This document shows, one piece after another, positions 3,274 to 25,859 of a stretch of DNA of 39,918 bases. Position 1 is the first letter of the stretch. The number at the start of each line of letters is the position of its first letter. A program made the position numbers and the translations under genes. The notes beneath the pieces are model-generated. The model did not search any database and was not told the origin of the DNA. It saw only the letters and a list, made by a program, of their open reading frames with translations. Source of the stretch: Planctomycetia bacterium (GTDB lineage: Bacteria; Planctomycetota; Planctomycetia; Pirellulales; PNKZ01); the NCBI GenBank assembly GCA_021413845.1, contig JAIOPP010000080.1, positions 1 to 39,918 of the forward strand, read 5' to 3'.

Positions 3274-5049
3274 ATGCTAAGAATGACCACATCCGTGCTT
3301 TCCATGTGTCGGCTTCCGTTTGTCTTGATCTATCTCTTTCTAGTGGGAGCGAACGTCGGTGCGGACGACTCCACCGCGACCATCGCGGTGCATTGGCCGT
3401 TTGTTTCCGACGCTCGCGCGGCCGTCGGGACGGCACATGCGACAAGCCGCGGTGGGGTGCAATTCAAGACAGTCAGTGGTCGGCCGGCGGCTGTGCTCAA
3501 CGGGCGGGACGCCTATTTTGAATCGGCGACGCCGTTGCGGTTCGGAACCGGCGACTTTTCGGTCGCGATGTGGGTTCATCCGGATCGTCCGCTCACTGCC
3601 ATTCCGGGCAACCTGCTGAGTTGCTGGAACCCGCTCCAACGCCGAGGATGGAATCTGTACGTGCAAGGGAGTTCGTCCGCTTATTCGTCGATTTGCGACA
3701 GCCGACATTTGCATTTTGGGATCGACGACGGTTGGAACGGCCCGGAGCGTGACCACGGCAAACCTTGGCCAAGCAATTCATTGATCAGCAACCTGATCGT
3801 ACACGAAGGGCGGCTTTATGCGAGTATCGCCGACGCCGACGAGCCGGCCGCCTATGCCCGCGTTTTCCGTTTATCGGACGACGAACGCAGTTGGGAAGAC
3901 TGTGGGCGGCTTGGCAACGATGAGACGATCCCCTCGGTAATGTCGATGATCGTCCACGACGGCAAATTGTACGCCGGTACCGGCGCCTGGGACTGGGTCC
4001 GCGCGTTTAGCAAGGACGGTAAGCATCGCGCTCCGCGATCAACCCGCGTCTTCGTCTATGAAGGGGGCAAAAAATGGCGTGATCTTGGGGAAGTCGGCAA
4101 AGGTTCGCGAGTTCTTTGCTTGTGCAGCTTCGCCGGATCGCTTTACGCCGGTCTCGATTCAGTCGGGGGTGGTAAATTATTCCGACTTGATCAGGATCGC
4201 TGGATCGATTGCGGATCGCCGGATAATCGAAACCTCGAGAACCTGATGCCGTGCTACGGGGCGCTGCACGTCGCGACCCACGGCAATGTTTATCGATATG
4301 AAGACGAGAACAAGTTCGTCCTCATCGGCAAGGAGCCGCACGGCATCAACCAGATTCACGCCTTGCACATGTACGATGGCAAGCTGATCGCGGGGACTTG
4401 GCCTCAGGGCTACATTCTTCGTCACGCGACGAACGGGAAGTGGGAGATCATGGGCCGGCTCGGCCTGCCGCCCGGCAAGGACGAGGAGATCAACGAAACG
4501 AACGATCTCGAATATCACAACGGCGCGCTTTACGCGGGGCTGCTCCCGCTTGCGGAACTATATCGGTACGAGCGCGACGGACAGTGGGCGAGGATCGGCC
4601 AACTCGGCCGACGAAAGGATTTCACGAATGAACGGGCAAATTTGGCGAGTTGGATGCGACTGACCGCGATGGCGAGTTATCGCGGTCGGCTCTTCGTGGG
4701 AACCGGATCATGTCAGGGGCGTGCCGTCGATTGCGACGCCGATGGGACGCTGGGCCGCGTCCGTTCCTACGCCTTTGGGCAGATGGTGAGCCACGAAAAA
4801 GACCTCCCGCCGGGCTGGGTCCACGTAGCGGCAGTGCGGCGAGAACGGACTCTGGAACTCTACCTCAACGGCCGACTGGTGGCGAAATCCGGCGATCAAC
4901 CGTCGCAATCGATCGACGTCGATAGCGATTCTCCGCTGCGAATCGGCTTCGGAAACCTGACGCACTTCTCCGGGGCGTTGTCCGATGTTCGGCTCTATCG
5001 TGGAGCATTGTCCGAGCACGATGTCGCAAAACTGGCTCAGGGAAATTAA
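3274..5049 (+). CDS. Secreted LamG-fold protein interrupted by a beta-propeller
   Basis: A 591-residue exported protein. The chosen ATG at 3274 gives a short n-region and a hydrophobic signal segment ending near ANVGA; ATGs at 3283 and 3304 are alternatives, and none has a strong ribosome site. Residues ~30-165 look like the first half of a LamG/concanavalin-A jelly roll (FGTGDFSVAMWVHP, GWNLYVQG). Residues ~168-500 contain recurring blades with the signature LYAGTG, LYAGLD, LIAGTW, LYAGLLP and LFVGTG, typical of Kelch-like propellers. Residues ~512-588 supply the second half of LamG (GWVHVAAVRR, LELYLNGRLVAKSGD, GALSDVRLYRGALS). The order suggests a propeller inserted in a loop of LamG. Such proteins usually bind glycans or surfaces; no catalytic residues are evident. 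It is flanked by imperfect direct repeats. Confidence 0.8.
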   Translation: MLRMTTSVLSMCRLPFVLIYLFLVGANVGADDSTATIAVHWPFVSDARAAVGTAHATSRGGVQFKTVSGRPAAVLNGRDAYFESATPLRFGTGDFSVAMWVHPDRPLTAIPGNLLSCWNPLQRRGWNLYVQGSSSAYSSICDSRHLHFGIDDGWNGPERDHGKPWPSNSLISNLIVHEGRLYASIADADEPAAYARVFRLSDDERSWEDCGRLGNDETIPSVMSMIVHDGKLYAGTGAWDWVRAFSKDGKHRAPRSTRVFVYEGGKKWRDLGEVGKGSRVLCLCSFAGSLYAGLDSVGGGKLFRLDQDRWIDCGSPDNRNLENLMPCYGALHVATHGNVYRYEDENKFVLIGKEPHGINQIHALHMYDGKLIAGTWPQGYILRHATNGKWEIMGRLGLPPGKDEEINETNDLEYHNGALYAGLLPLAELYRYERDGQWARIGQLGRRKDFTNERANLASWMRLTAMASYRGRLFVGTGSCQGRAVDCDADGTLGRVRSYAFGQMVSHEKDLPPGWVHVAAVRRERTLELYLNGRLVAKSGDQPSQSIDVDSDSPLRIGFGNLTHFSGALSDVRLYRGALSEHDVAKLAQGN

Positions 5050-5091
5050 GCCGGTGCGGACGAAAAGTTCATATTCCGCAACTACTCGCCT

Positions 5092-5821
5092 TCACAACCG
5101 CTGACGGAATTTTATGTTGCAGTTAAGTCGGGGCGACAGGACGTCTATTGAACTTTTTCTGGTCGGGATCAACGACTGGCCGCGATCAATTGTGCCCTTG
5201 CGTTCCATAACTCCGATCGCCGCCCAAAGCGATGCTTGGTAATGTCGACCCCATTCCTTTCCGTAGTGGTCGTTGGCGGCCATCGGCGTGTCGCCGATGA
5301 GTTCGGCCAACGTTTCGATCGAACAACCGATTCCCTTGTTCCGGTAACTCGAGAGCATCCTATGCACGAACGTATGTCGATAGGTATAGCTCGAGCATTT
5401 GCTCTTCTTCGGATCGAGATCCCGACCAAGCTTCTTCTTTAAGGTGAGGCAGCGAACGACGCCGGTCATCCGCTTCCACGGTTCGTCGCGCGTGTTCCGG
5501 AACAGCGGCTTGCCGGATCCCTTGAGCGCGGAGACCATCAACTTGCGGACGAATACGGCGACCGCGTTTTGAACAGGAATCTTTCGCGTCTTCTTCGTCT
5601 TCAAGGAATAGACCCGGTATGAATTGCCGCAAAGAATAATCGCTCAAGCGATCTTCGCCGGCACCGTAGAGAGCCTGTTCGTCGAACAACGACATTCGCT
5701 TTTTCATGCCGGGCAGCGTGTAATACCGGCAATCGGTCTGCTTCCGATTCCAGGCCGAACCGTGTTGCTTGCGGCGTTGCTTGCGAGTTCTTCTCGTGCG
5801 TCCGTCCGTGAAAAAGTTGAC
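5092..5821 (-). pseudogene. Decayed tyrosine recombinase (planctomycete-type integrase)
   Basis: Two pieces of one integrase lie in different frames. The N-terminal piece (from about 5818 down to ~5600) holds GSAWNRKQTDCRYYTLPGM and KKRMSLFDEQ, which I recall as characteristic of planctomycete integrase N-termini. The C-terminal piece (5604-5092) holds the catalytic region: YTYRHTFVHRML, SIETLAELIGDTP and the nucleophile context DHYGKEWGRHY. A frameshift near 5600 and a large internal deletion remove most of the core-binding domain and the first catalytic Arg region. The gene should therefore be inactive. It marks past mobile-element activity in the left end of the window. Confidence 0.75.
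5124..5170. repeat. Imperfect direct repeat, right copy
   Basis: Right-hand partner of the repeat at 3094-3143, overlapping the last codons of the integrase remnant. See the left copy for the shared core. The pair brackets about 2 kb of DNA containing only the LamG/propeller gene. Confidence 0.45.
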
Positions 5822-13951: not shown

Positions 13952-15187
13952 CTACAGCCGGCCTGCGATCAGCGAGCCGTTGTGGCCGCCGAAGCCGAAG
14001 CTGTTCGACATGATGATGTCGACCCGCTTTTCCTTGGGCTTGTTCGGAGTGTAGTCGAGGTCGCAACCTTCGTCGGGATTGTCGAGGTTGATCGTCGGCG
14101 GAATCAAGCTATCGCGGATCGCGAGCAAGCTCAGCACCAGCTCGACGCCGCCGCTCGCACCCAACAAGTGGCCGAGTTGGCTCTTCGTGCTCGAGATGCT
14201 GACCTTCTTCGCCGCCGGGCCGAAGATCGACTTGATAGCGACCGTTTCGGCTTTGTCGCCAAGCGGCGTGCTGGTGCCGTGAGCGTTGATGTAGTCGATC
14301 TTGTCCGCGGTGAGGCCGGCATCGCGGAGCGCGTATTCCATCGACTTCGCCGCGCCGATTCCGTTTTCGTCGGGCTGCGTGATGTGGCCGCCGTCGGAGC
14401 TGATTCCATAGCCGAGAATTTCGGCATAGATATTCGCACCGCGAGCCTTCGCGTGTTCGAGCTCTTCGAGCACGAGCACACCGGCCCCTTCCGAGAGTAC
14501 GAAGCCGTCGCGATCGCGGTCCCAGGGGCGGCTGGCCTGGGTGGGTGCGTCGTGGCGTTCGGAGAGGGCGCGCATATTCGCGAAGCCGCTGATGCTCATC
14601 GGCGTGAGCGCCGCTTCGGAACCGCCGGTGATCATGACGTCGGCGTGGTCGTACCGGACGGCGCGGAAAGCGTCGCCGATGGCATTGGCTGCGCTGGCGC
14701 AGGCCGTCGCAATGGCGCAGCTCGGGCCCTTCAATCCGTAATTGATCGAAACGTGCCCGGCGGCGGCGTTGGCCATCAGCTTAGGAATCGTGAAGGCCGA
14801 CACACGGTCGGGGCCTTTCTCGATCAGTCGGCTATGCTGCTCTTCGATCTCGTTGAGCCCGCCGATGCCGGAACCGATGATCGCGCCGCAGCGAAACGGA
14901 TCTTCCTTGGAGAAATCGAGGCCCGATTCGCGCACCGCATCCATCGCGGCCACCATCGCAAATTGGGTGAACCGATCGATGCGCTTGGCATCCTTCAGGC
15001 TGACGTATCCCTCGGTCGACCAATTCCGAACTTCCCCTGCGAAGCGAACTTTGAAGCCCGTGACATCGAACAGGGTGATCGGGCCGATGCCGCTCTCACC
15101 CGCCAAGATCCGCTTCCAAAGATCCTCGACTTTGCAGCTTAAGCCCGTGACGGCGCCGAGGCCGGTGACGACGACTCGGCGTTTCAT
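13952..15187 (-). CDS. fabF: Beta-ketoacyl-ACP synthase II
   Basis: A 411-residue condensing enzyme that elongates acyl-ACP with malonyl-ACP. The Cys-His-His catalytic set is visible: Cys163 (in [11 protein letters not shown]), His303 ([11 protein letters not shown]) and His340 ([13 protein letters not shown]). The glycine-rich ending NSFGFGGHN is also present, and length is normal for FabF. The ATG at 15187 overlaps the acpP stop as ATGA, so it is translated with its carrier protein. It is the last gene of the fatty-acid cluster. Confidence 0.96.
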
Positions 15188-15432
15188 TTATTCGCGTTGC
15201 CCTGAGATTGTTCGATGTAGTCGATCGCTTGACCGACGGTTTGGATTTTTTCGGCAGCGTCGTCCGGGATGTTGATGTCGAACTCTTCTTCGAGCTCCAT
15301 CACCAATTCCACGGTGTCGAGCGAGTCTGCGCCGAGGTCGTTGACGAACGACGTCTCACGCGAGACTTGGTCTTTATTGACGCCTAGCTGCTCCGAAACG
15401 ATATCGATAACTCGTTCTGTGACTGAGGCCAC
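15184..15432 (-). CDS. acpP: Acyl carrier protein
   Basis: An 82-residue acidic ACP. The 4'-phosphopantetheine site is Ser37 in [11 protein letters not shown]. The start is GTG at 15432, preceded by GGAGGG; it aligns with the usual ACP N-terminus (M[11 protein letters not shown]). Longer in-frame starts would add an atypical basic extension. It is coupled to fabF by a 4-nt overlap. It carries acyl chains between the Fab enzymes encoded around it. Confidence 0.95.
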
Positions 15433-15802
15433 CTTCGGGTCCCTCCACCGCGCTAAATACATTCTAGACAAAATTTCAAAACGGGACCGCATCGGCGGTC
15501 ACGCTGTTTTTCTTTGGACTGATTCTAAACGGAAAGTCGCTCGCTGCTTAGCCCTTCGTTCGCTTCCTCGACCCGAATTCAGGATCGAGCCGGGGCCACG
15601 ATCGCCGTATTGTCGTCGAGGCCCGATCTGCAGGAGATCAAAACAGGCCGACGGCAGCAAAATGCCCAGTTTCGCCGTTACGACGAAAATGGAGGGTTTC
15701 CGTAAAGAAGGTCAAGATATACCGACTTTTCCTACCGGTGTCTATACATACCGCCGGTTCCGCAACATCGCCGGAGGAGCCCCGATGATCGGCAGGGCAT
15801 TG
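15433..15802. other. 370-bp gap between fabG and acpP
   Basis: No gene supported. The gap is long for an operon, and AT-rich patches near 15455-15480 leave room for a separate promoter driving acpP-fabF on the minus strand. I see no strong terminator after fabG. An antisense open frame crosses this gap and fabG but is only a shadow. Confidence 0.5.
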
Positions 15803-16582
15803 TCAGCAGGTCATTCCGCCGTCGACGATGAGAAGCTGCCCGGTCACGTACGAACTCGACGGCGCAGCGAGGAAGAGAACCGCATTGGCGATATCTTCCC
15901 CCTTGCCGAGCCGTTTGGCGGGAATCCGCTTTTGCACTTCGTCCAAGATCGCATCCCCGAGCGCCGCGGTCATATCGCTTTCGATAAATCCAGGAGCGAT
16001 CGCGTTGACCGTCACCTTGCGGCCGGCGAGCTCGCGAGCCACGGTGCGGGTGAAGCCGTGCAGAGCGGCCTTCGAGGCCGAGTAGTTGGCCTGGCCCGGG
16101 TTACCGATCACGGCCCCGGAAACGCTCGCCATGTTGATGATCCGTCCGTAGCGGCCGGTCATCATCACGCGGCTGGCGGCGCGGGTAAAGAGAAACGTGC
16201 CGCGCAAGTTCGTATTGATGACTTCGTCCCATTGCTCATCGCTCATGCGAGGGAGCAGGGTGTCGCGGGTAATGCCGGCGTTGTTGACGATGATCTGCAA
16301 GCCGCCGAACTTCTCGACGACCTTGTCGACCACGGCATCGACGTTCGTGCCGTTCGTCACGTCGCACTCGAACGCTTCGGCCGAGCCCCCGGCGGCGACG
16401 ACGGCGTCGACCGTTTCCTTGAGCTTGTCCACGGTGCGCGCGATGCACGCCACGTTGGCTCCCGCTTTGCCGAGGGCCAGTGCGATCGTTCGCCCCAGGC
16501 CGCGCGAGGCACCCGTGACGATGGCCGTTTGGCCCTTGAGGTCGACAGTCAATTCACCGGTCGGTGCTTCGGGACGTGCCAT
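15803..16582 (-). CDS. fabG: 3-oxoacyl-ACP reductase
   Basis: A 259-residue short-chain dehydrogenase that reduces 3-oxoacyl-ACP with NADPH. The Rossmann motif TGASRGLGR, the NNAGITRD segment and the catalytic Ser153, Tyr167, Lys171 (NYSASK) are present. The C-terminus VTGQLLIVDGGM is typical of FabG. It lies between fabD and acpP, which supports the fatty-acid role over other SDR activities. Its leader carries two GTCAGAA heptamers instead of a Shine-Dalgarno. Confidence 0.93.
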   Translation of the reverse strand: MARPEAPTGELTVDLKGQTAIVTGASRGLGRTIALALGKAGANVACIARTVDKLKETVDAVVAAGGSAEAFECDVTNGTNVDAVVDKVVEKFGGLQIIVNNAGITRDTLLPRMSDEQWDEVINTNLRGTFLFTRAASRVMMTGRYGRIINMASVSGAVIGNPGQANYSASKAALHGFTRTVARELAGRKVTVNAIAPGFIESDMTAALGDAILDEVQKRIPAKRLGKGEDIANAVLFLAAPSSSYVTGQLLIVDGGMTC

Positions 16583-16621
16583 GGGAAGACTCGGAGTATT
16601 GGTCAGGGGGCAGTGGGAAAA

Positions 16622-16700
16622 GTCAGAAGTCAGAAGTCAAAATGCAAAACTACATGACCACTTCTCACTTTTGCATTTTGCATTTTAACTTTTGACTTCT
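16622..16700. repeat. Heptamer/ATGCAAAA inverted repeat between fabD and fabG
   Basis: The left arm has two GTCAGAA units and then gtcaaaatgcaaaa; the right arm (from ~16670) has ttttgcattttgcatttt and then ttttgacttct. The arms are imperfect inverted copies, so the spacer can fold into a hairpin. The same pieces (heptamers plus ttttgcattttgcattttt) occur at 34758-34970. Confidence 0.7.
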
Positions 16701-16702
16701 CT

Positions 16703-17614
16703 TTATTTTTCTTCGCTTCCTTCGCAGGCGATCTTGCGGTCGATTCGTTTCAGCAGGCCGCGCAATACGCGCCCCGGCCCGACCTCGTAGAACTTGTCGC
16801 AACCCTCGGCGAGCAGGTAACGTATCGAATCTTCCCAACGAACCGGCGAAACGACTTGCCGGATCAGCAGGCGGCGAATCTCTTCGGGATCGTCGTGCGG
16901 CAAGGCATCGACGTTGGAGACGACCGGAATGCGCGGCTTCCGCAGCGGTACGTTGCCGAGCGCGTCGGTCAGTTTTTCGACCGCGCTTTGCATGATCGAG
17001 GTGTGAAACGCTCCGGCGACGGCCAGCGGAATCGCCTTCATCGCTCCCAGTTTCGGCGCGAGTTCGGCGGCCCGTTCGCAGGCTGCGCGCGTTCCGGAGA
17101 CGACGATATTGCCGGGGCAAAGCAAGTTCGCGATTTCGAGCGTTTCGCCGGCTCGGGCCTGTGCGCAAAGCTCTTCGACTTGCGCTCGCTCCAAGCCGAG
17201 AATGCTCACCATGCCGCTCGCTTGCGCATCGGCCGCGGCTTGCATCGCCGTGCCGCGGGCATGCACGAGCTTCAGCCCGTCGTCGAACGACATCACGTCG
17301 GCGAAGACCAAGGCCGTGTACTCGCCGAGGCTCAAGCCTGCCGCCGCTTGGCAACCGGCGACCACCTCGGGCTGCGTGGCGCGTAGCGACTCGATCGCAG
17401 CCATGCTCGCGACGAAGAGCGCAGGCTGGCTGCGCACCGTACTGTCGAGCTCTTCGGCAGGCCCTGTGAAGCAGAGCTTCGCGAGATCGTAGCCGAGAAT
17501 GTCTCCCGCGCGGGCGAACATATCGCGAGCGGCGGGGAGCGACTCGCAAAGGGCCTGGCCCATCCCGACGGTTTGAGCACCTTGGCCCGGAAACAAAAAA
17601 GCGATTTTGCTCAC
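16703..17614 (-). CDS. fabD: Malonyl-CoA:ACP transacylase
   Basis: A 303-residue acyltransferase that loads malonate on ACP. FPGQGAQTVGMG at the N-terminus, the nucleophile elbow GLSLGEYTAL (Ser95), the carboxylate-binding Arg120 (HARGTAMQ) and His204 (AGAFHTSIM) are all present. Length and motif order are standard for FabD. It lies between rpmF and fabG in a normal bacterial fab cluster; plsX and fabH are not seen next to it. Confidence 0.95.
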   Translation of the reverse strand: MSKIAFLFPGQGAQTVGMGQALCESLPAARDMFARAGDILGYDLAKLCFTGPAEELDSTVRSQPALFVASMAAIESLRATQPEVVAGCQAAAGLSLGEYTALVFADVMSFDDGLKLVHARGTAMQAAADAQASGMVSILGLERAQVEELCAQARAGETLEIANLLCPGNIVVSGTRAACERAAELAPKLGAMKAIPLAVAGAFHTSIMQSAVEKLTDALGNVPLRKPRIPVVSNVDALPHDDPEEIRRLLIRQVVSPVRWEDSIRYLLAEGCDKFYEVGPGRVLRGLLKRIDRKIACEGSEEK

Positions 17615-17659
17615 GGCACGAAGGTCCTCAACGCGGGCGAAGTCTGACTCGGGCGGCCC

Positions 17660-17848
17660 TTATTCGGCGGCGTCGTCGGTTTCGACGACGGTACGGCCCA
17701 TATAATAGCCGCAATTCGGGCAGATGACGTGCGAAGGGATCGCCGTGCTGCACTTAGGGCAGTAATGCAACTGCTTAGGCTTCTTCTGATCGTGAGCACG
17801 GCGCGAGCCGGTCTTCTGATTGCTCTGACGGCGCTTTGGGACGGCCAT
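17660..17848 (-). CDS. rpmF: 50S ribosomal protein L32
   Basis: A 62-residue basic protein starting MAVPKRRQSNQKTGSRR, the usual L32 opening. A zinc ribbon is formed by CPKC and CPNC. The acidic tail (VVETDDAAE) is somewhat longer than in many L32 proteins. The ATG at 17848 matches the family N-terminus, so upstream in-frame starts are rejected. Linkage of rpmF with fatty-acid genes is common in bacteria. Confidence 0.95.
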   Translation of the reverse strand: MAVPKRRQSNQKTGSRRAHDQKKPKQLHYCPKCSTAIPSHVICPNCGYYMGRTVVETDDAAE

Positions 17849-18264
17849 GGAACCAACCGATACAAATAGGTCTACAATCTGGGAAACCAACGATCGTAAA
17901 GGGGGCCGGACGGAGTGTCAAGGCGGTCCCGGCGCGAAAGCGAAGTCGCGCCCGGCAGAGCAATTGCCGCAAATCACCTAGTTTCGGATCGCAAAAGCAG
18001 AAGAAACCAACCGAAGCGAGCGCCGACGATAGCTTCATCCAAGTCCGTCGCCCCGCTTGCGATTTCGTGAGTCGATGATCCTACACGGGAGCCGGGACGG
18101 GCTCTGTCTCGCGGCGGCGCAGAAAGATTCCTTGCTAACTTTTCGACTCGCACAACGCCTCGTTTATGGAAAGACCGGCGTCCTTCGCTTTTTTTGCGGA
18201 AACCATTCCCGGCGAGCGGCGAATAACTCTGAGAGACGTCTTAAGACGTCGAGGATGGAATCGT
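17849..18264. other. Divergent intergenic region rpmF / secreted protein
   Basis: No gene supported. Near the plus-strand gene there is a GGAAACC at 18198-18204 that could serve as an ECF-type -35 element (weak), and a perfect palindrome at 18235-18250, described separately. Confidence 0.5.
18235..18250. promoter_or_regulatory. Perfect 16-bp palindrome before the satellite gene
   Basis: GACGTCTTAAGACGTC is its own reverse complement. It lies 14 nt upstream of the ATG at 18265 and immediately before the ribosome site (GAGGATGG). It could be an operator for a dimeric repressor or a leader hairpin that hides the ribosome site. Confidence 0.45.
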
Positions 18265-18618
18265 ATGAGCCATGCTATTCGATGGTTTGCAGTCATGTTT
18301 GTATGTGCATTCGTGGATGTGGTCGCTGTCGATGCCGACGACGCGAAGTTGAAGCCCGAAATGACGGTCGGCTTTATTCATGCCGTCGACGCGAGTGCGA
18401 AGACGTTCGTCCTCGGTGGGAAGAACGAGAGTCAAACGACATTCAAAGTGCTGGTGAAAGCCGCCGGAAATCGTGAAGCCGCACACGTTCTGCTCGACGG
18501 GAAAAGGACCACCTTCGAAGAAGCGATTCAATCGAAGCGAAAAGCAACGGTGACGTTTGTGAAGACAGGCGACGATCTTTGGGTCTGGAAAGTCGATGTG
18601 GCGTCGGGATCGAAGTAG
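18265..18618 (+). CDS. Secreted satellite copy of the FecR C-terminal domain
   Basis: A 117-residue protein: signal peptide (about 1-24, cleavage near VDADD) plus one domain of about 82 residues. That domain is about two thirds identical by hand alignment to residues 266-347 of the FecR protein encoded 1 kb downstream. Shared blocks include AVTFVKTG-like KATVTFVKTGD, GNREAA, LDGKRTTF and WVWKV. I know no named family for the domain; the pattern of alternating strands suggests a small beta-barrel. It lies just upstream of, and parallel to, the ECF sigma gene. The ATG at 18265 has the Shine-Dalgarno GAGG. A role in sensing or in competing with the FecR output domain is inference. Confidence 0.8.
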   Translation: MSHAIRWFAVMFVCAFVDVVAVDADDAKLKPEMTVGFIHAVDASAKTFVLGGKNESQTTFKVLVKAAGNREAAHVLLDGKRTTFEEAIQSKRKATVTFVKTGDDLWVWKVDVASGSK

Positions 18619-18676
18619 CTCGACATGCGCCCCGCCATGAAAACCGCAACTACGTTCGCTAATAGTGAGGATCGTG

Positions 18677-18708
18677 ACGACCGGGTCGCCGCGCTGCGGC
18701 CCGGTCGT
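18677..18708 (+). terminator. GC-rich hairpin between satellite gene and sigma factor
   Basis: A 13-bp stem with one mismatch (18677-18689 with 18696-18708) and a 6-nt loop. No clear T-run follows, so it may attenuate rather than end transcription between the satellite gene and the sigma factor. Confidence 0.45.
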
Positions 18709-18748
18709 GTTGCCGTGGCGCGGTCGCAACCGAAAGTCGATCGTTGAT

Positions 18749-19282
18749 ATGGAGCCCGACGAGCTACTCCGCGAGTTCGTGCGACAACGCCACATGCTCT
18801 ATGGCTACGTCTTCGCACTCACGGCCGACCACAACGTCTCCGAAGACGTTCTGCAGGAAATCGGCGTCTCGATTCTGAACGAACGAAAACGAGGCACGGA
18901 ACCCGAAAACGTCCTTCTGTGGTTGCGAGGCTTGGCGCGACATCGCGTTGCCGACCACTATCGCCATGCCGCGACTCGCGAACGCCGTGAAATGCAGTTC
19001 GAGAAATTCGCCGATATCGTAGATCGGGCTTTCGTCGAGAATGCAACCGAGGGGGGCGACGAGCACGATCAACTCGAACTTCTCAAAGCGTGCATTAAAG
19101 AATTGACGGAACGAGTTCGAACGCTCGTCGAATTGAAATACGGCTCAGGCAAGTCGATCGAGGAGATCGCCTCGGCCGTGTCTTGGACTTCCGCCTCGGT
19201 CAAGGTTGCCCTGTCGCGCGCTCGACGTTCTTTGGCCGATTGCGTAGGTCGTAAATCGCGCCGCGAGGAGGCACTTCGATGA
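18749..19282 (+). CDS. ECF-type RNA polymerase sigma factor
   Basis: A 177-residue sigma-70 family protein with only regions 2 and 4. Region 2 covers about 5-75 (MLYGYVFALTADHNVSEDVL, then WLRGLARHRVADHYR for promoter melting/-10 contacts). Region 4 is at about 115-170 (LVELKYGSGKSIEEIASAV, then the recognition helix SWTSASVKVALSRARRSL). The chosen ATG at 18749 matches the usual short N-terminus. Its stop overlaps the FecR start as ATGA, so sigma and anti-sigma are made in step. It resembles the planctomycete/verrucomicrobial ECF groups whose partners are FecR proteins. Confidence 0.93.
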   Translation: MEPDELLREFVRQRHMLYGYVFALTADHNVSEDVLQEIGVSILNERKRGTEPENVLLWLRGLARHRVADHYRHAATRERREMQFEKFADIVDRAFVENATEGGDEHDQLELLKACIKELTERVRTLVELKYGSGKSIEEIASAVSWTSASVKVALSRARRSLADCVGRKSRREEALR

Positions 19283-20322
19283 CGTTCGATGAACTCATGG
19301 ATGCGTATTTGCTCCGAGAGATCTCCGCAGAGCAATTCGCGGAACTGCAAGAACTGCTCGACGCGGATCCCGTTGCTCGCAGTCGTTTCGTGCAGACCTC
19401 GCTGCTCGAGGCGCGGCTTCATCATGCGTTAGGGAGCACGCTATTCGAGACGGCTTCTTCCAGCCAACGCTTGGCCTTCGCGAAGCCGGCCGGTCGCATG
19501 TTTCAGCGTGGTATCGCCGGCCTACGGCGACTGGATTTGGCGGCGGTCGCGGTGTTGGCTGTCGTCGCCGTCGCGATTTTCTACGTCGCTCGCCCGAACG
19601 CTACTCCGGGAGCGGTCGTGATTTCGGGAACGCTCACGGTCGACGGCGCGCCTCGCACGCGAGTCGTCGATGGTTCTACCTTGGTCGTTTCCGGTCAGGA
19701 ACAGGTGATCATCGAGCTTGCGGACGGAACTCGGGCCACGCTCTATCCCGGCACCGAGTTGACGATTCGCGGGTCCGTCGATAACGCTCGCCAAGCCGTT
19801 CAACTCCATTCCGGCGGCGGGCGATTCGATGTCGGTCGCAGCGGCGATTCTTTTCGAGCCGACACGCCGCTGGGTTCGGCCGTGGCGCGCGGCACGCAAT
19901 TCACCGCGGTGCTTCGTTCGTCGCGGAGTTTGTTTCTTTACGTCGCCGAAGGGAAGCTGCAATTCGACGGCGAAGGCCAAGCGTTTTCGCTGGGCACAGG
20001 CGAAACTCGCATCGTCGGTCAAGACGAGGGCTCCGCCCCGCCGAGTGTCGCCGCTGATATTCAAGTCGAAGAAGGTTGGATTCAAACCGTCGACGCGGTC
20101 TCGAAGACGTTCGTCGTTGGGGGCCGAAACGAGCATCGGACGACGTTTCACGTCGCGATTCTCGCGGAGGGGAATCGAGAAGCGGCGCAAGTGTATCTCG
20201 ACGGGAAAAGGACCACCTTCGACGAAGCGATAAAACCGCAGCGAAAAGCAACCGTGACGTTCGTGAAGACAGGCGACGAGCCTTGGGTTTGGAAGGTCGA
20301 AGTTATTTCGGCACTGAAGTAG
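19279..20322 (+). CDS. FecR-type transmembrane anti-sigma factor with an extra C-terminal domain
   Basis: A 347-residue membrane protein. The N-terminal ~75 residues are cytosolic and would bind the sigma factor (MDAYLLREISAEQFAELQEL). One membrane helix is at about 86-104. The FecR domain spans ~111-250, with GSTLVVSGQEQVIIELADGT and DTPLGSAVARGTQFTAV typical of the family. Residues 266-347 form an additional domain nearly identical in pattern to the satellite protein at 18265. Known role of the family: hold the ECF sigma factor until a surface signal is received. The extra domain probably acts as periplasmic sensor or ligand. Translation is coupled to sigma by ATGA. Confidence 0.9.
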   Translation: MTFDELMDAYLLREISAEQFAELQELLDADPVARSRFVQTSLLEARLHHALGSTLFETASSSQRLAFAKPAGRMFQRGIAGLRRLDLAAVAVLAVVAVAIFYVARPNATPGAVVISGTLTVDGAPRTRVVDGSTLVVSGQEQVIIELADGTRATLYPGTELTIRGSVDNARQAVQLHSGGGRFDVGRSGDSFRADTPLGSAVARGTQFTAVLRSSRSLFLYVAEGKLQFDGEGQAFSLGTGETRIVGQDEGSAPPSVAADIQVEEGWIQTVDAVSKTFVVGGRNEHRTTFHVAILAEGNREAAQVYLDGKRTTFDEAIKPQRKATVTFVKTGDEPWVWKVEVISALK

Positions 20323-20323
20323 A

Positions 20324-21490
20324 ATGGCGACGAGCGCGGGCCCGATTCTTCGTCGGCCGCTCGAACTCGCCTCTTTCTTTCGAGCGAATGGTTTCTCTTT
20401 CGTGACCGCCGACCTGCGACATCTTTTCGACCTGCCGCGCGCGGAGCTTTCGCAGTTGCTCGCCTCGTGGGGCTTTGCCTCCGTGCATGCCGTGCGGCTT
20501 TGGCGCTACCTCTATCGCGAGCTCACGACCGACTTCGCAACGATGGTCGAGCTTCCGCGCCGCTTGCGCGAGCGTTTGGCCGTGGAAACCAGCCTCGCAC
20601 TGCCGACGGTTGCCGCGACGAGCAGCTCCGACGAAGGGGCGACGTCGAAGTATCTACTCGAACTCGATTCGCAATCGAAAATCGAAACCGTTCTGATGCG
20701 TTACGCGCGTCGGGCCACGGCGTGCCTCAGTTCGCAAGCCGGCTGCGCGCTTGGTTGCGTCTTTTGCGCGACGGGACAAGCCGGCTTTACGCGCAATCTT
20801 TCGACGGCGGAAATCGTCGGCCAAGCGCTGCTGGTGGAACGCGAACTCCGCGCTGCCGACGCGAGCTCCCGGATGTCGCAGACGCGCCGGCGTGCGTTGC
20901 TCGGCAATCTCGTCTTCATGGGGATGGGAGAGCCGCTCTTGAATTACGAGGCCGTGATGCGGGCGATCGAAATTCTCGGCGACTCCGCCGGCTTCGCGAT
21001 CGGCGGCAAACAAACGACCCTCAGCACGGTCGGCATCGTGCCGGGCATCGTTCGCTTGGCCGACGAGCGGCGTCCGTTCTCGTTGGCCGTCTCGCTGCAT
21101 GCGGCGACGCAAGAAGAGCGCGCGGCGATCGTGCCCGCGGCGCGTGCTTGGCCGCTCGAGGCCGTGATCGAGGCCTGCCGCTATTACGCGACGAAGCTCA
21201 GTGCGGCGAAGCTCGATCGCAAGATCTTCTTCGAGTGGACCCTCATCGCCGGCAAGAACGACGGACCGGAGCAGGCGCGGCGCCTCGTCGAAATGCTGCG
21301 CGGCATCCCGGCGCAGATCAACGTGATCCCGCTCAATGCCACGGCCGGCTACGACGGCATCGCGGGCAGCGTCGAAGCGGCTCGCCGTTTTCAAGCGTGG
21401 CTGCGTGCCGCCGGCCTGCCGACGACGATCCGCCGACATCGCGGCCTCGACGTCGCCGGCGGCTGCGGGCAACTCGCCGGCGCGACGTGA
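20324..21490 (+). CDS. rlmN: 23S rRNA/tRNA adenine-C2 methyltransferase
   Basis: A 388-residue radical SAM methylase that methylates A2503 of 23S rRNA and A37 of some tRNAs. The iron-sulfur motif CxxxCxxC is Cys141, Cys145 and Cys148 (AGCALGCVFCATG). GMGEPLLNYEAV and SLHAATQEERAAIVP are family hallmarks. The methyl-carrying C-terminal Cys381 (AGGCGQLAG) is present. It starts one nucleotide after the FecR stop, so it may be co-transcribed with the sigma locus. It converges on alaS with a 6-bp gap. Confidence 0.95.
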   Translation: MATSAGPILRRPLELASFFRANGFSFVTADLRHLFDLPRAELSQLLASWGFASVHAVRLWRYLYRELTTDFATMVELPRRLRERLAVETSLALPTVAATSSSDEGATSKYLLELDSQSKIETVLMRYARRATACLSSQAGCALGCVFCATGQAGFTRNLSTAEIVGQALLVERELRAADASSRMSQTRRRALLGNLVFMGMGEPLLNYEAVMRAIEILGDSAGFAIGGKQTTLSTVGIVPGIVRLADERRPFSLAVSLHAATQEERAAIVPAARAWPLEAVIEACRYYATKLSAAKLDRKIFFEWTLIAGKNDGPEQARRLVEMLRGIPAQINVIPLNATAGYDGIAGSVEAARRFQAWLRAAGLPTTIRRHRGLDVAGGCGQLAGAT

Positions 21491-21496
21491 TCGCCG

Positions 21497-24115
21497 TTAC
21501 GCTCCGAGTTGCTTCGTCATCGCGGCGAGCCCTTCGCTGAGTGCTTCCGCGAGTTTTTCCGGGTGCTTTCCGCCGGCCTGAGCCATGTCGGGACGACCGC
21601 CGCCGCTGCCGCCGACGACCGTGGCGGCCGCCTTGACCCAGTTGCCCGCGTGCATCTTTTTCGCTTGGAGATCATGTGTGATTCCGGCAACCAGCACGAC
21701 TTTGCCTTCGTCGTCCGTCGCGCCGAGAATCGCGGCGATGCTCGGTTGCTTCTGTCGCAACTGGTCGATGATCGCACGGAGCGTATCGCCCGTTCCGCCG
21801 GGAATCTCGGCGGCGACGATCTTCGTCGCGCCGACCGTCTTCGCATCGGCGAGCATCTGATCGACGGTCGGGCCGCCGGCGCGAACGCCGGTCGCGAGCT
21901 GCTTCTTGAGCTCTTTCACTTCTTTGACGAGCGCCGCGACCCGCTTCGGCAGATCGTCGACGGACGACTTGAGTTCGGAAGCCGCTTCGTTAAGGAGCGC
22001 CTCTTGCTTGCGCGTGCGCTCGAGTGCCGCACGCCCGGTAACGGCCGTAATGCGGCGCGTTCCCGCGGCGACGTTCTCTTCGCTCACGATCTTAAACAGA
22101 CCGACTTGTCCGGTGTTGTCCAGGTGCGTGCCGCCGCAAAGTTCTTTGCTGAAGTCTCCCATCGAGACCATGCGGACGACGTCGGGATACTTCTCGCCGA
22201 AGAGCATCATGGCCCCTTCCTTGCGGGCCTCGGCGATCGGCAAGTTCTTCCAGTTGATCGGCGCGGCCTCGGCGATCTTGGCGTTCACTTCGTTTTCGAT
22301 GTCGGCGAGCTTTTCCTTCGGCACTTGCGTCGGGTGGCCGAAGTCGAAACGAAGCTCATCGCCGGAGACTTTCGAGCCCCGTTGCAAGGCATCTTTGCTG
22401 ACGTACTTTTGCAGCGCGTAGTGCATCAGATGCGTCGCGGAGTGAGCGCGGCGAATCGCTTGCCGCCGTTCCGGATTGACGGTCGCGGTCGCTTTCGCCC
22501 CTTGTCGCACGACGCCCGCGCGCAGATGGCCGACGTGGAGCATGAAGCCCCCTTCTTTTTGCGTGTCGATCACTTCGAAGGCAAAACCTTCGCCGAGGAT
22601 CTCGCCGATGTCGCCGACTTGTCCGCCGCTTTCGCCGTAGAACGGTGTTTGATCGAGCACGACGACGATCGGTTTCGCATGCCCGATCTCATCGACTTGG
22701 TCGACGAGCTTGTCTTGTGCGATCAGGCCGACGATCTTCCCTTCGGCTTCCAGCTTCTCGTAGCCGAGGAACGTGGTGCCATGCATCGCCTTCTTTAGCG
22801 CATCGAGCGGCCCGCTGGCGAACACGATCCGTTCGCCGACGTTGGAGATTTTGCCGTGCTCCTCCATCGCCTTCTTGAAGCCGGCCCAATCGAACGTGAG
22901 GTTGTGTTCGGCGGCGATCGTCTCGAACAACTCCGGCGGGAAGCCGTGCGTTTGGTACATGTCGAAGGCATCGCGGCCGGGGACCATCGGCTTGTTCTTC
23001 GCCTTCATCTCGTCGAAGACCTTGTCGATGCGGTTGAGCCCGGCGTCGACGGTGGTGAAGAAGCTTTGCTCTTCGCGCTCGATCACTTTCGAGACCGAAG
23101 CGATGGTCTCTTGGAGCTCGGGATAAGAGTTCTTCATCATGTCGGCGACGACCGGCACGAGCTTGTGCAAGAACGGCTGCGTGAGGCCCATTTGCCGACC
23201 GTCGAGCACGGCGCGGCGCAGCAAGCGGCGAATCACGTAGCCTTGCTTTTGCTTGTCGGGATACACGTTTTCATGCACGGCGAACGAGCAGGCGCGCACG
23301 TGGTCGGCGATGCGGCGCAGGCGCCGGCCGTCGTCGTTCGCGGGATCGTATTTCCGGCTGCAAATGTCGCCGGCCGCTTCGACGAGCGGGCGCAGAATGT
23401 CGATGTGGTAGTTCGTCTCGACCCCTTGCATGACCGAGGCGATGCGCTCGAGGCCCATGCCGGTGTCGATGTTTTTGCTCGGCAGCGGACGCAGATTGTT
23501 CGGCGGAGTGCCGACCCGGTTGAACTGCGTGAAGACGAGGTTCCAGATCTCGACGCTCTTCGGGCCGCCGTCCGGATGGTAGAAGATTTCGCTGCAAGGG
23601 CCGCAAACGCCGTCGGGGCCCGCGGTCGGCGCGCCGGCCGGCCAGAAGTTGTCGTCTTCGCCCATGCGCTCGATGCGGTCGTTCGAGAGGCCGATGTCTT
23701 TGTGCCAGATGCCGGCCGCTTCATCGTCGTCGAGATACACGGTGACGGTGAGCTTATCGGCCGGGAGGCCGAGCCACTTCTTGTCGGTGAGGAATTCCCA
23801 GGCCCAATGGATGGCGTCGCGCTTGAAGTAGTCGCCGAAGCTGAAGTTGCCGAGCATCTCGAAGAACGTGTGGTGGTAGGCGGTCCGCCCCACGTTGTCG
23901 ATGTCGCCGGTACGAAGACATTTCTGGCACGTCGTGGCCTTCGTGTATTCGAGCTTGCACTTGCCGAGGAAGTGGTCTTTGAACTGATTCATGCCGGCCG
24001 GCGTGAACAGGACCGACGGATCCCAGCGGGGAACCAGCACGTCGCTCGGGCGGCGCGTGCAACCCTTCGAGACGAAGAAATCCAGGTACTTCTCACGCAG
24101 TTCGTCGGTCTTCAT
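21497..24115 (-). CDS. alaS: Alanyl-tRNA synthetase
   Basis: An 872-residue class II synthetase of normal full length. The ATG at 24115 (MKTDELREKYLDFFVSKGC) fits the family start better than the upstream TTG at 24124. The catalytic domain opens with FTPAGMNQFKDHFLGK. The editing domain shows HSATH (His558, His562) and CGGTH (Cys660, His664) as zinc ligands. The C-Ala domain ends with the glycine-rich GGSGGGRPDMAQAGG, typical of AlaRS. It charges tRNA-Ala and clears Ser and Gly mischarges. It lies about 250 bp downstream of the HtrA-like gene, a stretch in which I see no gene. Confidence 0.97.
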   Translation of the reverse strand: MKTDELREKYLDFFVSKGCTRRPSDVLVPRWDPSVLFTPAGMNQFKDHFLGKCKLEYTKATTCQKCLRTGDIDNVGRTAYHHTFFEMLGNFSFGDYFKRDAIHWAWEFLTDKKWLGLPADKLTVTVYLDDDEAAGIWHKDIGLSNDRIERMGEDDNFWPAGAPTAGPDGVCGPCSEIFYHPDGGPKSVEIWNLVFTQFNRVGTPPNNLRPLPSKNIDTGMGLERIASVMQGVETNYHIDILRPLVEAAGDICSRKYDPANDDGRRLRRIADHVRACSFAVHENVYPDKQKQGYVIRRLLRRAVLDGRQMGLTQPFLHKLVPVVADMMKNSYPELQETIASVSKVIEREEQSFFTTVDAGLNRIDKVFDEMKAKNKPMVPGRDAFDMYQTHGFPPELFETIAAEHNLTFDWAGFKKAMEEHGKISNVGERIVFASGPLDALKKAMHGTTFLGYEKLEAEGKIVGLIAQDKLVDQVDEIGHAKPIVVVLDQTPFYGESGGQVGDIGEILGEGFAFEVIDTQKEGGFMLHVGHLRAGVVRQGAKATATVNPERRQAIRRAHSATHLMHYALQKYVSKDALQRGSKVSGDELRFDFGHPTQVPKEKLADIENEVNAKIAEAAPINWKNLPIAEARKEGAMMLFGEKYPDVVRMVSMGDFSKELCGGTHLDNTGQVGLFKIVSEENVAAGTRRITAVTGRAALERTRKQEALLNEAASELKSSVDDLPKRVAALVKEVKELKKQLATGVRAGGPTVDQMLADAKTVGATKIVAAEIPGGTGDTLRAIIDQLRQKQPSIAAILGATDDEGKVVLVAGITHDLQAKKMHAGNWVKAAATVVGGSGGGRPDMAQAGGKHPEKLAEALSEGLAAMTKQLGA

Positions 24116-24371
24116 AGTCGCCAAAGCAAAAGGGTTTTATGTGAGTGAGGTGCGTCTCTTGAACGGACGACGCAGTTCGCTTGCGGGTTCGCCGATCTTC
24201 AATGGCGCGACAATCGCTAAGCCGTGCGCCGCGAAGAGGTTACGGGAAAACCGCGGCCCGTCATCATAGCGAGAGGGCGAAATCAGGGCTAGAGAAGCCG
24301 GAATGGCCTGCACGGAAGCGGAGAATCGGGAAAGATGCGCGGTCGGCTTTCGTCCGACTACTCGTTGCTTG

Positions 24372-25859
24372 CTACTCGCCGACCTTCACGACCGGCGGTT
24401 GCGTGGGCATGGCGCCGATGCGGAGTTCGACTTCCCCCTTCAGCTGCTTCGTCCGGTCGTAAAACTCTTGGGGGTTATCGACCGGGACGTTCTTCACATG
24501 CGTGATCAGCATCCCGCGGCGCACGCCGGCGGCCCAGGCGGCGGAATTCGGATCGACTTCGTAGGCCAACACGCAAGACGTGCCGACTCGAAAGCCTTGA
24601 TTGAATTGCGGGTCGAGCTCGGGATGGGCCGAAGGGAAGTCGACGCGCAGCCCGCGCCAGATCGGTTCGGGAGCGGTCGAGATGTTTTTGCCGCGGACTT
24701 CGAACTTCGCGAGCGTGACGTTGATCGGAAAGAGTCGGCCGTCGCGCTCGACGGCGATGCTCGTCACGTTGCCGGCCGGCTGCTTGCCGACGAGGAGCAT
24801 CAAGCCATCGACGTCGTCGATCGGCTTCCCGGAGATTTGCGTGATGATGTCGCCGGGAAACAGCCCGGCCCGTTCGGCAGGGGAGCCGTTGCGAACGGTC
24901 TCGACGCGCACGCCTCGGACGCCGGCCGCTCGTTCGCCGGGAGTCAAAGCCGACGACGAAACGCCGAGCAGGCCGTAGTCGACCTTTTTCCCTTGCTTGA
25001 GCGTGTCGACGACGCGCAAGAAAAGTTCATCGATCGGCATGGCATAGCCGGCCGCCTGCTCGAAGCCGGCCACGGCGGCTTGCGAAGTGGTCAGGCCGAT
25101 CATCTCCCCTTGCAAATTCAGCAGTGCGCCGCCGCTGGTGCCGAGATTGAGCTTGGCGTCGGTTTGAATGAGGGTGCCGAAGTGGTGGATCGTCTTCTTG
25201 CGGTCGCGGGGGTCTTCGGCTTTCAAATCCGGGGCCGACTTGCGCGAGAGGTTCGCGATGATTCCCCAACTGGCGCTCACTTGCCCATCGCGCGCGATCG
25301 CGTAGGGGTTGCCGAGCGCCAGCACGATCTGTCCCTTCTTCAGCTTCGAGCCGTCGCCGAACTTGATCGGCGGAAACGGCATATCGGTCGGAATGCCGTC
25401 GACGCGCAGCATCGCGAGGTCGCTCCGAGCATCCGTCGCGACGATCGCGGCTCGTAGCGGCCGGCGCGCGATCGTGGTGACCCAGATCTCGCCGGGGCCG
25501 TCGATCGCGTGCAAGTTCGTCACCACGAAGCCGGCTTTATCCACGATGACGCCGGTCGCGAAATCGTTGGGGACGAAGTCCGGATTCGTCGGAGTCTGCA
25601 TCGTCGGGTCGAAAGGGAGCATGCCGGGGCGGGGCATGATTTCCGGCCGGAAGTCGCGCAGCCCGACCTCTTCTTGATGGAAGCGGGCGATGCTGACGAC
25701 CGACTTTTCCGCCCGCTCGATCGCCTGGGTCAGCACTTGCTCCAAGGCGATCGCCGCTTGCAGCCCGCTCGGCTCTTGAGCCGGAGCGGGGGCTGCAACG
25801 GACAACAGCGAGATTAAGGTGAGCGACAAAACGAGCCGAGAGTCGAGCAAGCCGTTCAT
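24372..25859 (-). CDS. HtrA/Deg-like serine protease with two PDZ domains
   Basis: A 495-residue exported protease. A signal peptide (LVLSLTLISLLSVAAPAPAQ) precedes a trypsin-fold domain whose triad is His117 (TNLHAID), Asp147 (ARSDLAM) and Ser242 (LGTSGGALL, where Thr replaces the more usual Asn). The first PDZ is at ~285-370 (NGSPAERAGLFPGDIITQI); a second, more divergent PDZ is at ~395-485 (DPNSAAWAAGVRRGMLITHV). It likely degrades misfolded envelope proteins. It begins 18 nt after the recA stop with GGAG upstream, so it appears to be in one transcript with recA. N-terminal residues 60-95 form an extra loop. Confidence 0.9.
   Translation of the reverse strand: MNGLLDSRLVLSLTLISLLSVAAPAPAQEPSGLQAAIALEQVLTQAIERAEKSVVSIARFHQEEVGLRDFRPEIMPRPGMLPFDPTMQTPTNPDFVPNDFATGVIVDKAGFVVTNLHAIDGPGEIWVTTIARRPLRAAIVATDARSDLAMLRVDGIPTDMPFPPIKFGDGSKLKKGQIVLALGNPYAIARDGQVSASWGIIANLSRKSAPDLKAEDPRDRKKTIHHFGTLIQTDAKLNLGTSGGALLNLQGEMIGLTTSQAAVAGFEQAAGYAMPIDELFLRVVDTLKQGKKVDYGLLGVSSSALTPGERAAGVRGVRVETVRNGSPAERAGLFPGDIITQISGKPIDDVDGLMLLVGKQPAGNVTSIAVERDGRLFPINVTLAKFEVRGKNISTAPEPIWRGLRVDFPSAHPELDPQFNQGFRVGTSCVLAYEVDPNSAAWAAGVRRGMLITHVKNVPVDNPQEFYDRTKQLKGEVELRIGAMPTQPPVVKVGE

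Follow-up and report, generated by a model that had tools for sequence, protein, structure and literature searches.

A planctomycete ECF sigma/FecR locus carrying a second copy of the FecR C-terminal domain, and similar pairings at other FecR loci of the order

What might a FecR regulator sense when its own C-terminal domain is encoded a second time, as a separate protein, in the same gene set? To our knowledge, the ligands sensed by most planctomycete FecR proteins are unknown. The question is raised by a locus at positions 18265-20322 of a 39,918-nt stretch of planctomycete DNA (the whole of this stretch is termed the window), which is made up of three genes, all on the + strand: the gene for a small free protein, an ECF sigma factor gene and a FecR gene.

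The free protein (18265-18618, +; 117 aa from the open reading frame and its translation) is apparently exported. Its N-terminus is hydrophobic (best 17-residue hydropathy window from residue 8, mean 2.25), and this signal-like segment is followed by a domain of about 83 residues, the protein ending in VDVASGSK. A PEP-CTERM sorting signal is not matched in it, and the protein is not classed as a PEP-CTERM protein. The sigma factor (18749-19282, +; 177 aa) scores 53.7 bits against TIGR02937 (cut-off 42.9), and thus counts as an ECF sigma factor; in Pfam it exceeds the cut-off of Sigma70_r4_2 (46.6 bits, cut-off 25.7) and falls just below that of Sigma70_r2 (23.8 bits, cut-off 24). Its best match is TIGR02989, the Rhodopirellula/Verrucomicrobium sigma subfamily, at 103.2 bits, which is below the cut-off of 124.55 and does not place it in that subfamily. 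The FecR gene (19279-20322, +; 347 aa; Pfam FecR 44.4 bits, cut-off 24) is coupled to the sigma gene by an ATGA in which the sigma stop codon overlaps the FecR start codon. FecR has one strongly hydrophobic segment at about residues 87-103 (hydropathy), a FecR domain at 137-226 and a C-terminal domain at 263-345. The N-terminus would be cytoplasmic, with residues ~87-103 as the single membrane segment; a FecR domain past the membrane segment in this predicted topology and a gene coupled to an ECF sigma gene identify the protein as a FecR regulator.

An rlmN open reading frame comes next, its first ATG one base past the FecR stop codon; its true start may lie further in, since the RlmN domain starts only at residue 34. 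The upstream flank holds fatty-acid genes and rpmF on the opposite strand, and the downstream flank alaS and a trypsin/PDZ protease gene (Pfam). A FecA-like TonB-dependent receptor was not found by Pfam scan among the eight flanking genes (13952-25859). A second rlmN-like gene is present in the genome (G000:C152:15454-16500), with 41% identity to the rlmN behind FecR (window 20324-21490). Among the window genes tested for synteny, rlmN alone is present in the three family stretches examined, and the six other genomes of the family contain no relative of the window sigma factor above 32% identity.

A search for a sigma-70-like promoter on the + strand between 17880 and 19300 found none. Two non-coding elements lie beside the free gene. 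The perfect 16-bp palindrome GACGTCTTAAGACGTC (18235-18250), 14 bp upstream of the free gene start codon, has one match in the window and none in 100 shuffles; folding of its region is no better than that of shuffles (z -0.03), and it is possibly an operator or a 5' hairpin. Between the free gene and sigma, an inverted-repeat search located a strong GC-rich hairpin (18677-18708, +) that lacks a T-run and does not appear in the terminator listing. For the region 18619-18748 the computed folding energy is -59.7 kcal/mol (z -3.3), and a putative role of the hairpin in processing or attenuation is possible.

Residues 33-115 of the free protein align with residues 263-345 of FecR at 66% identity (E 3e-32). 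This bears out the first-pass annotation, in which the last ~82 residues of FecR were said to recur, about two thirds identical, in a separate protein upstream of sigma. At the DNA level the repeat covers 243 nt (18376-18618 and 20080-20322; 75% identity). A gapless 252-nt alignment delimits the duplicated domain as 18361-18612 (+) in the free copy and, together with the protein match, as 20065-20316 (+) in the FecR-fused copy, with 72.2% identity in DNA and 65.5% in protein. Beyond the domain edges DNA identity drops, over 60 nt on either side, to 25% (upstream) and 33% (downstream). Full open frames are retained in both copies.

Similarity is highest in one tract, 18493-18598 (+) of the free copy and its partner 20197-20302 (+) of the FecR copy, where 94 of 106 positions are identical. 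This value of 88.7%, the best of any 106-bp interval, compares with 72% for the whole domain, and an earlier count by hand of about 88%, above the rest, was accurate. When codons were shuffled, 0.03% of 20,000 shuffles equalled the tract (p = 0.0003), so it is not a product of chance. Among codons for the same amino acid, silent differences occur in 12 of 25 within the first 44 codons and in 6 of 30 within the last 40, a modest contrast (Fisher p 0.043). The excess in the tract is not well explained by constraint alone, because the one homologue found in another genome (G524, below) shows no stronger conservation in the second half of the domain: its amino acids agree with the free copy at 20 of 42 positions in the first half and at 19 of 41 in the second. 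Gene conversion or a recent partial exchange is the likely origin of the tract, with support that is good although drawn from a short stretch. Of the recent duplication or gene conversion proposed at first, a recent homogenisation of part of the two copies is supported.

The domain itself is very rare. It exceeds no curated family cut-off in Pfam and TIGR profile scans, and it has no LamG match in Pfam and no convincing match among PDB sequences. Genome sets of 57 (own included), 396 (order) and 392 (phylum) were searched, which overlap, in addition to 9 genomes of the class of G524, viral contigs, plasmids, PDB sequences and, by two pattern scans, the contigs of close relatives. The own genome has two convincing copies, both at the window locus; three further matches there (E 0.09 to 0.9; L003, L004 and L005 among them) were taken as chance, the matching frame of L003 (E 0.09) being a short ORF antisense to two long ones. 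In the order (396 genomes, own included), the other 395 genomes gave no convincing homologue, and the single weak match, L019, is a repetitive stretch with two stop codons inside the match. The phylum search of 392 genomes gave one convincing homologue outside the own genome, in G524 (E 7e-16). Nine other phylum matches (L025-L033, E 0.003-0.04 per genome) were dropped as chance; chance alone would give about 20 of this kind at E 0.05 in a set of 392 genomes. No further convincing homologue was found in the 9 genomes of the G524 class, viral contigs, plasmids or contigs of close relatives.

The G524 homologue is a free protein of 111 residues from another class of the phylum, with an N-terminus that, judged by eye, resembles a classical signal peptide. 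Visual inspection of the 15 kb fetched around it showed neither a sigma nor a FecR gene, and tblastn of the window sigma factor and FecR against this stretch returned only the domain itself. The domain can thus exist without FecR. Widespread occurrence apart from FecR, which the first-pass annotation had named as an argument against its proposal, is not what the searches found; co-occurrence of free and fused copies, which it had proposed to check, holds at the window locus, and the G524 copy is free with no FecR gene seen nearby. Where the window copies differ, G524 sides eight times with the free copy and twice with the FecR copy, which mildly favours a free ancestor that was captured by FecR.

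Does such pairing recur with other domains? The survey drew on 30 genomes, the own genome among them; 19 have a FecR match, and the 70 matches listed were all taken with up to ~6 kb on each side, often less at contig ends, and with 15 kb for the window. Each FecR C-terminal region was compared with the rest of its locus at a threshold of at least 40 bits, the 70 FecR genes being masked. A non-FecR stretch of the same locus matches the FecR C-terminal region in 10 of 70 cases, compared with 15 of 4,760 non-cognate pairings, a rate ~45-fold higher for cognate pairings (Fisher p 6e-13, a value that overstates the spread of the pattern since one genome, G017, contributes seven of the ten); the remaining 60 FecR have no own-locus match. 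The ten pairs are the window, seven G017 loci, a LamG pair in G009 (L146), whose free protein runs past the end of its contig stretch, and a probable remnant (L082). The L082 match (4526-4858, minus strand) is a 110-aa ORF with 34% identity over 97 aa to the FecR C-terminal region. It adjoins the sigma/FecR pair of a same-genus genome divergently, on the opposite strand, has no evident signal sequence and is truncated. Beyond the window, free and fused copies thus also pair at other FecR loci; in this order, FecR C-terminal domains of several unrelated kinds are accompanied by a neighbouring exported protein of like kind.

Upstream sigma genes were sought solely with the window sigma factor, and many FecR loci gave no match, so that a sigma partner is not claimed for every FecR. 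The locus L127 (genome G020) was not counted as a free copy, since what matches there is a tandem pair of FecR genes separated by ~3.9 kb, whose C-terminal regions share ~56% identity. By whole-protein search the nearest relative of the window FecR in the order is L049 (5894-7318, minus strand, genome G192); its C-terminal region is unrelated and, by eye, highly charged, which would fit frequent ectodomain swapping.

Of the 30 genomes, G017 alone has a PEP-CTERM gene at every FecR locus. At 13 of 13, a PEP-CTERM gene follows FecR on the same strand, ~40 to 1,100 bp downstream (motif above cut-off by TIGR02595 in 10 and by Pfam in 3). Outside G017, a PEP-CTERM-like C-terminus occurs somewhere in the fetched stretch at 8 of 56 loci, none of them among the ten pairs, and the one other genome of the family of G017, 81% complete, has no FecR match. 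Seven of the 13 FecR C-terminal regions in G017 match their own PEP-CTERM neighbour at 24-52% identity; these seven form six clusters without BLAST links between them, and none of 200,000 label shuffles reached seven own-neighbour matches. In four (L091, L101, L103, L129), no other PEP-CTERM protein of the set was matched at E <1e-5. L105 and L107 also match crosswise, each with the partner of the other (for L107 the score is slightly above that with its own), and L113 also matches the partner of L086, by phmmer slightly better than its own. The FecR proteins without an own-neighbour match include L093, which matches the PEP-CTERM proteins at L129 and L086 instead, and L086 and L087, which weakly match the partner of L111 (E 3e-4 and 6e-5); L099, L109 and L111 match no PEP-CTERM protein of the set at blastp E <0.05. 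At L091 the FecR/PEP-CTERM pair is followed by a prepilin-like gene with a DUF1559 (SBP_bac_10) match (4759-5700; Pfam), and by eye a similar gene lies beside L099, L101, L107 and L111. The pseudopilin may belong, with sigma, FecR and the PEP-CTERM protein, to a single surface module. The window locus and G017 may not share a mechanism, because the free gene lies upstream of sigma in the window and downstream of FecR in G017, and the window protein has no PEP-CTERM signal.

At the window the two domains are homologous and encoded by co-directional neighbouring genes, and other FecR loci of the order show the same pairing in domains that BLAST does not link. The explanation that we prefer, with about even confidence, is that the locus would act as a trans-envelope switch whose FecR ectodomain was captured, as a copy, from the exported protein of the same gene set. 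As a copy of that protein, the ectodomain would recognise the same target, a ligand at the surface or in the periplasm that might be a polysaccharide. Any ligand that the free protein has not covered would engage the FecR copy; the engaged FecR would be altered or cleaved and sigma freed, and the freed sigma would lead to more exported protein until the ligand is covered. The free copy would be both output and competitor and the loop a homeostat, while exchange in the repeated 3' tract would keep the two recognition surfaces alike. That the free protein and FecR would compete for one ligand is plausible; like export, the ligand and membership in the sigma regulon, such competition is something we infer.

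This captured-copy reading draws on the free/fused homology, the homogenised tract, the excess of cognate matches in the survey, the G017 pairs, the precedent of RsgI6 and the cleavage of E. coli FecR (both below). Against it stand the near uniqueness of the window locus, the 395 other genomes searched in the order giving no second example with this domain, the 60 of 70 FecR without pairing, the concentration of pairs in one genome, the 6 of 13 G017 FecR proteins without an own match, the cross-matches of L107 and L113, the different gene order and sorting signal in G017, the low confidence of the structure models (below) and the lack of a sigma-70-like promoter in the stretch searched.

Homotypic control, in which the exported free domain would itself bind the FecR ectodomain as a dimer or domain swap, and FecR would gauge its own product in the periplasm, dispenses with a third ligand. 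It would fit the cognate homology at the window and in the survey and the position of the most alike tract, which in the window pair falls within the final 40 residues. However, 24-52% identity in G017 is much divergence for a shared interface, and AlphaFold2 models are of low confidence (mean pLDDT 41.4 with the two-row alignment A1 and 40.2 with the three-row A3); this alternative is held to be rather unlikely. From its sequence pattern, the domain might adopt an OB-like small barrel fold.

Two adjacent repeats recombine readily, and the pairing might be a by-product of this, with ectodomains often swapped and captured by recombination from the nearest exported gene and no present functional link. 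The great diversity of FecR C-terminal regions (31 clusters among 70), the truncated copy at L082 beside a same-genus FecR locus and the free G524 homologue with no FecR seen nearby are what such a process would leave. Yet both window copies keep full open frames at 65.5% protein identity, and the free partners in G017 keep their sorting signal, follow FecR at every locus and, across several domain families, resemble the FecR of their own locus; an origin as a by-product is judged unlikely. That neighbours match by chance through a widespread LamG-like carbohydrate-binding domain common in these genomes is very improbable: one of the ten pairs (L146) is indeed LamG on LamG, at a locus that also matches L141, a FecR of another genome, and non-cognate matches do occur, but the window domain shows no Pfam match to LamG, the five G017 FecR proteins scanned with Pfam (of 13) match FecR alone, and the cognate rate far exceeds the non-cognate one.

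How do known systems compare? RsgI6/SigI6 of Clostridium thermocellum is closest: its anti-sigma factor sits in the membrane and has an outer sensor homologous to a secreted protein, the promoter of which is recognised by the sigma factor. In the available part of the source, the GH10 sensor of RsgI6 shares 57% identity with Xyn10D, and work in a Bacillus subtilis host showed a response of the xyn10D promoter to sigma-I6 (PMC4711584). The first-pass view of the locus as a new kind of surface-signalling control was, given this precedent, too strong. RsgI1-5 of the same species carry carbohydrate-binding sensors. Unlike the window locus, RsgI6/SigI6 belongs to other sigma and anti-sigma families and to a Gram-positive cell; the window free copy is adjacent, partly homogenised in DNA and a small, unclassified domain, whereas sigI6 and xyn10D have distant locus tags in the tables seen of PMC4711584. 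Pfam finds no RsgI domain in the window FecR at E up to 1, with FecR above cut-off, and the protein is not assigned to the RsgI family.

The E. coli ferric citrate system FecI/FecR likewise couples an ECF sigma gene to a single-pass FecR with its FecR domain outside, and FecR is there cut in the periplasmic part and, by RseP, in the membrane, according to the portion consulted of PMC8144685. In contrast, the window locus has no FecA-like receptor among the eight flanking genes and on that scan is not classed as a FecA-FecR-FecI system, and its FecR has an extra C-terminal domain past the FecR domain, of which a free copy is encoded beside. PEP-CTERM/exosortase sorting resembles the G017 loci, where the free partners are PEP-CTERM proteins adjoining FecR; the window free protein has no such match, and many proteobacterial PEP-CTERM genes are, in published work, controlled through a sigma-54 site together with PrsK/PrsR rather than by ECF/FecR, as far as the excerpt used of PMC1569441 goes. 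The principle thus has a close precedent in RsgI, and the FecR version with a neighbouring exported protein was not found in the literature searched, from which most subscription journals are absent; within the same literature, no paper was found that pairs a FecR C-terminal domain with a neighbouring exported homologue or joins FecR with PEP-CTERM.

Together, the sequences suggest that the window switch monitors its environment through a sensor copied from its own product, and that the related G017 pairs would involve six other kinds of exported protein. A wider reading, put forward tentatively and held at somewhat less than even confidence, is that planctomycetes have a general class of self-referential ECF/FecR switches, whose ectodomains were repeatedly captured from adjacent exported or PEP-CTERM proteins and each of which would monitor what becomes of its own product (whether it is exported, assembled at the surface or occupied by ligand); the window locus would be a young case, in which gene conversion still keeps the two copies similar. 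If ectodomains copy the exported proteins that they control, the sensor sequence alone would name both regulon and ligand. Direct tests would then become possible for many orphan switches and for the uncharacterised PEP-CTERM proteins that some of these have as neighbours, and the RsgI6/Xyn10D principle would extend from clostridial cellulosomes to another anti-sigma class and another phylum.
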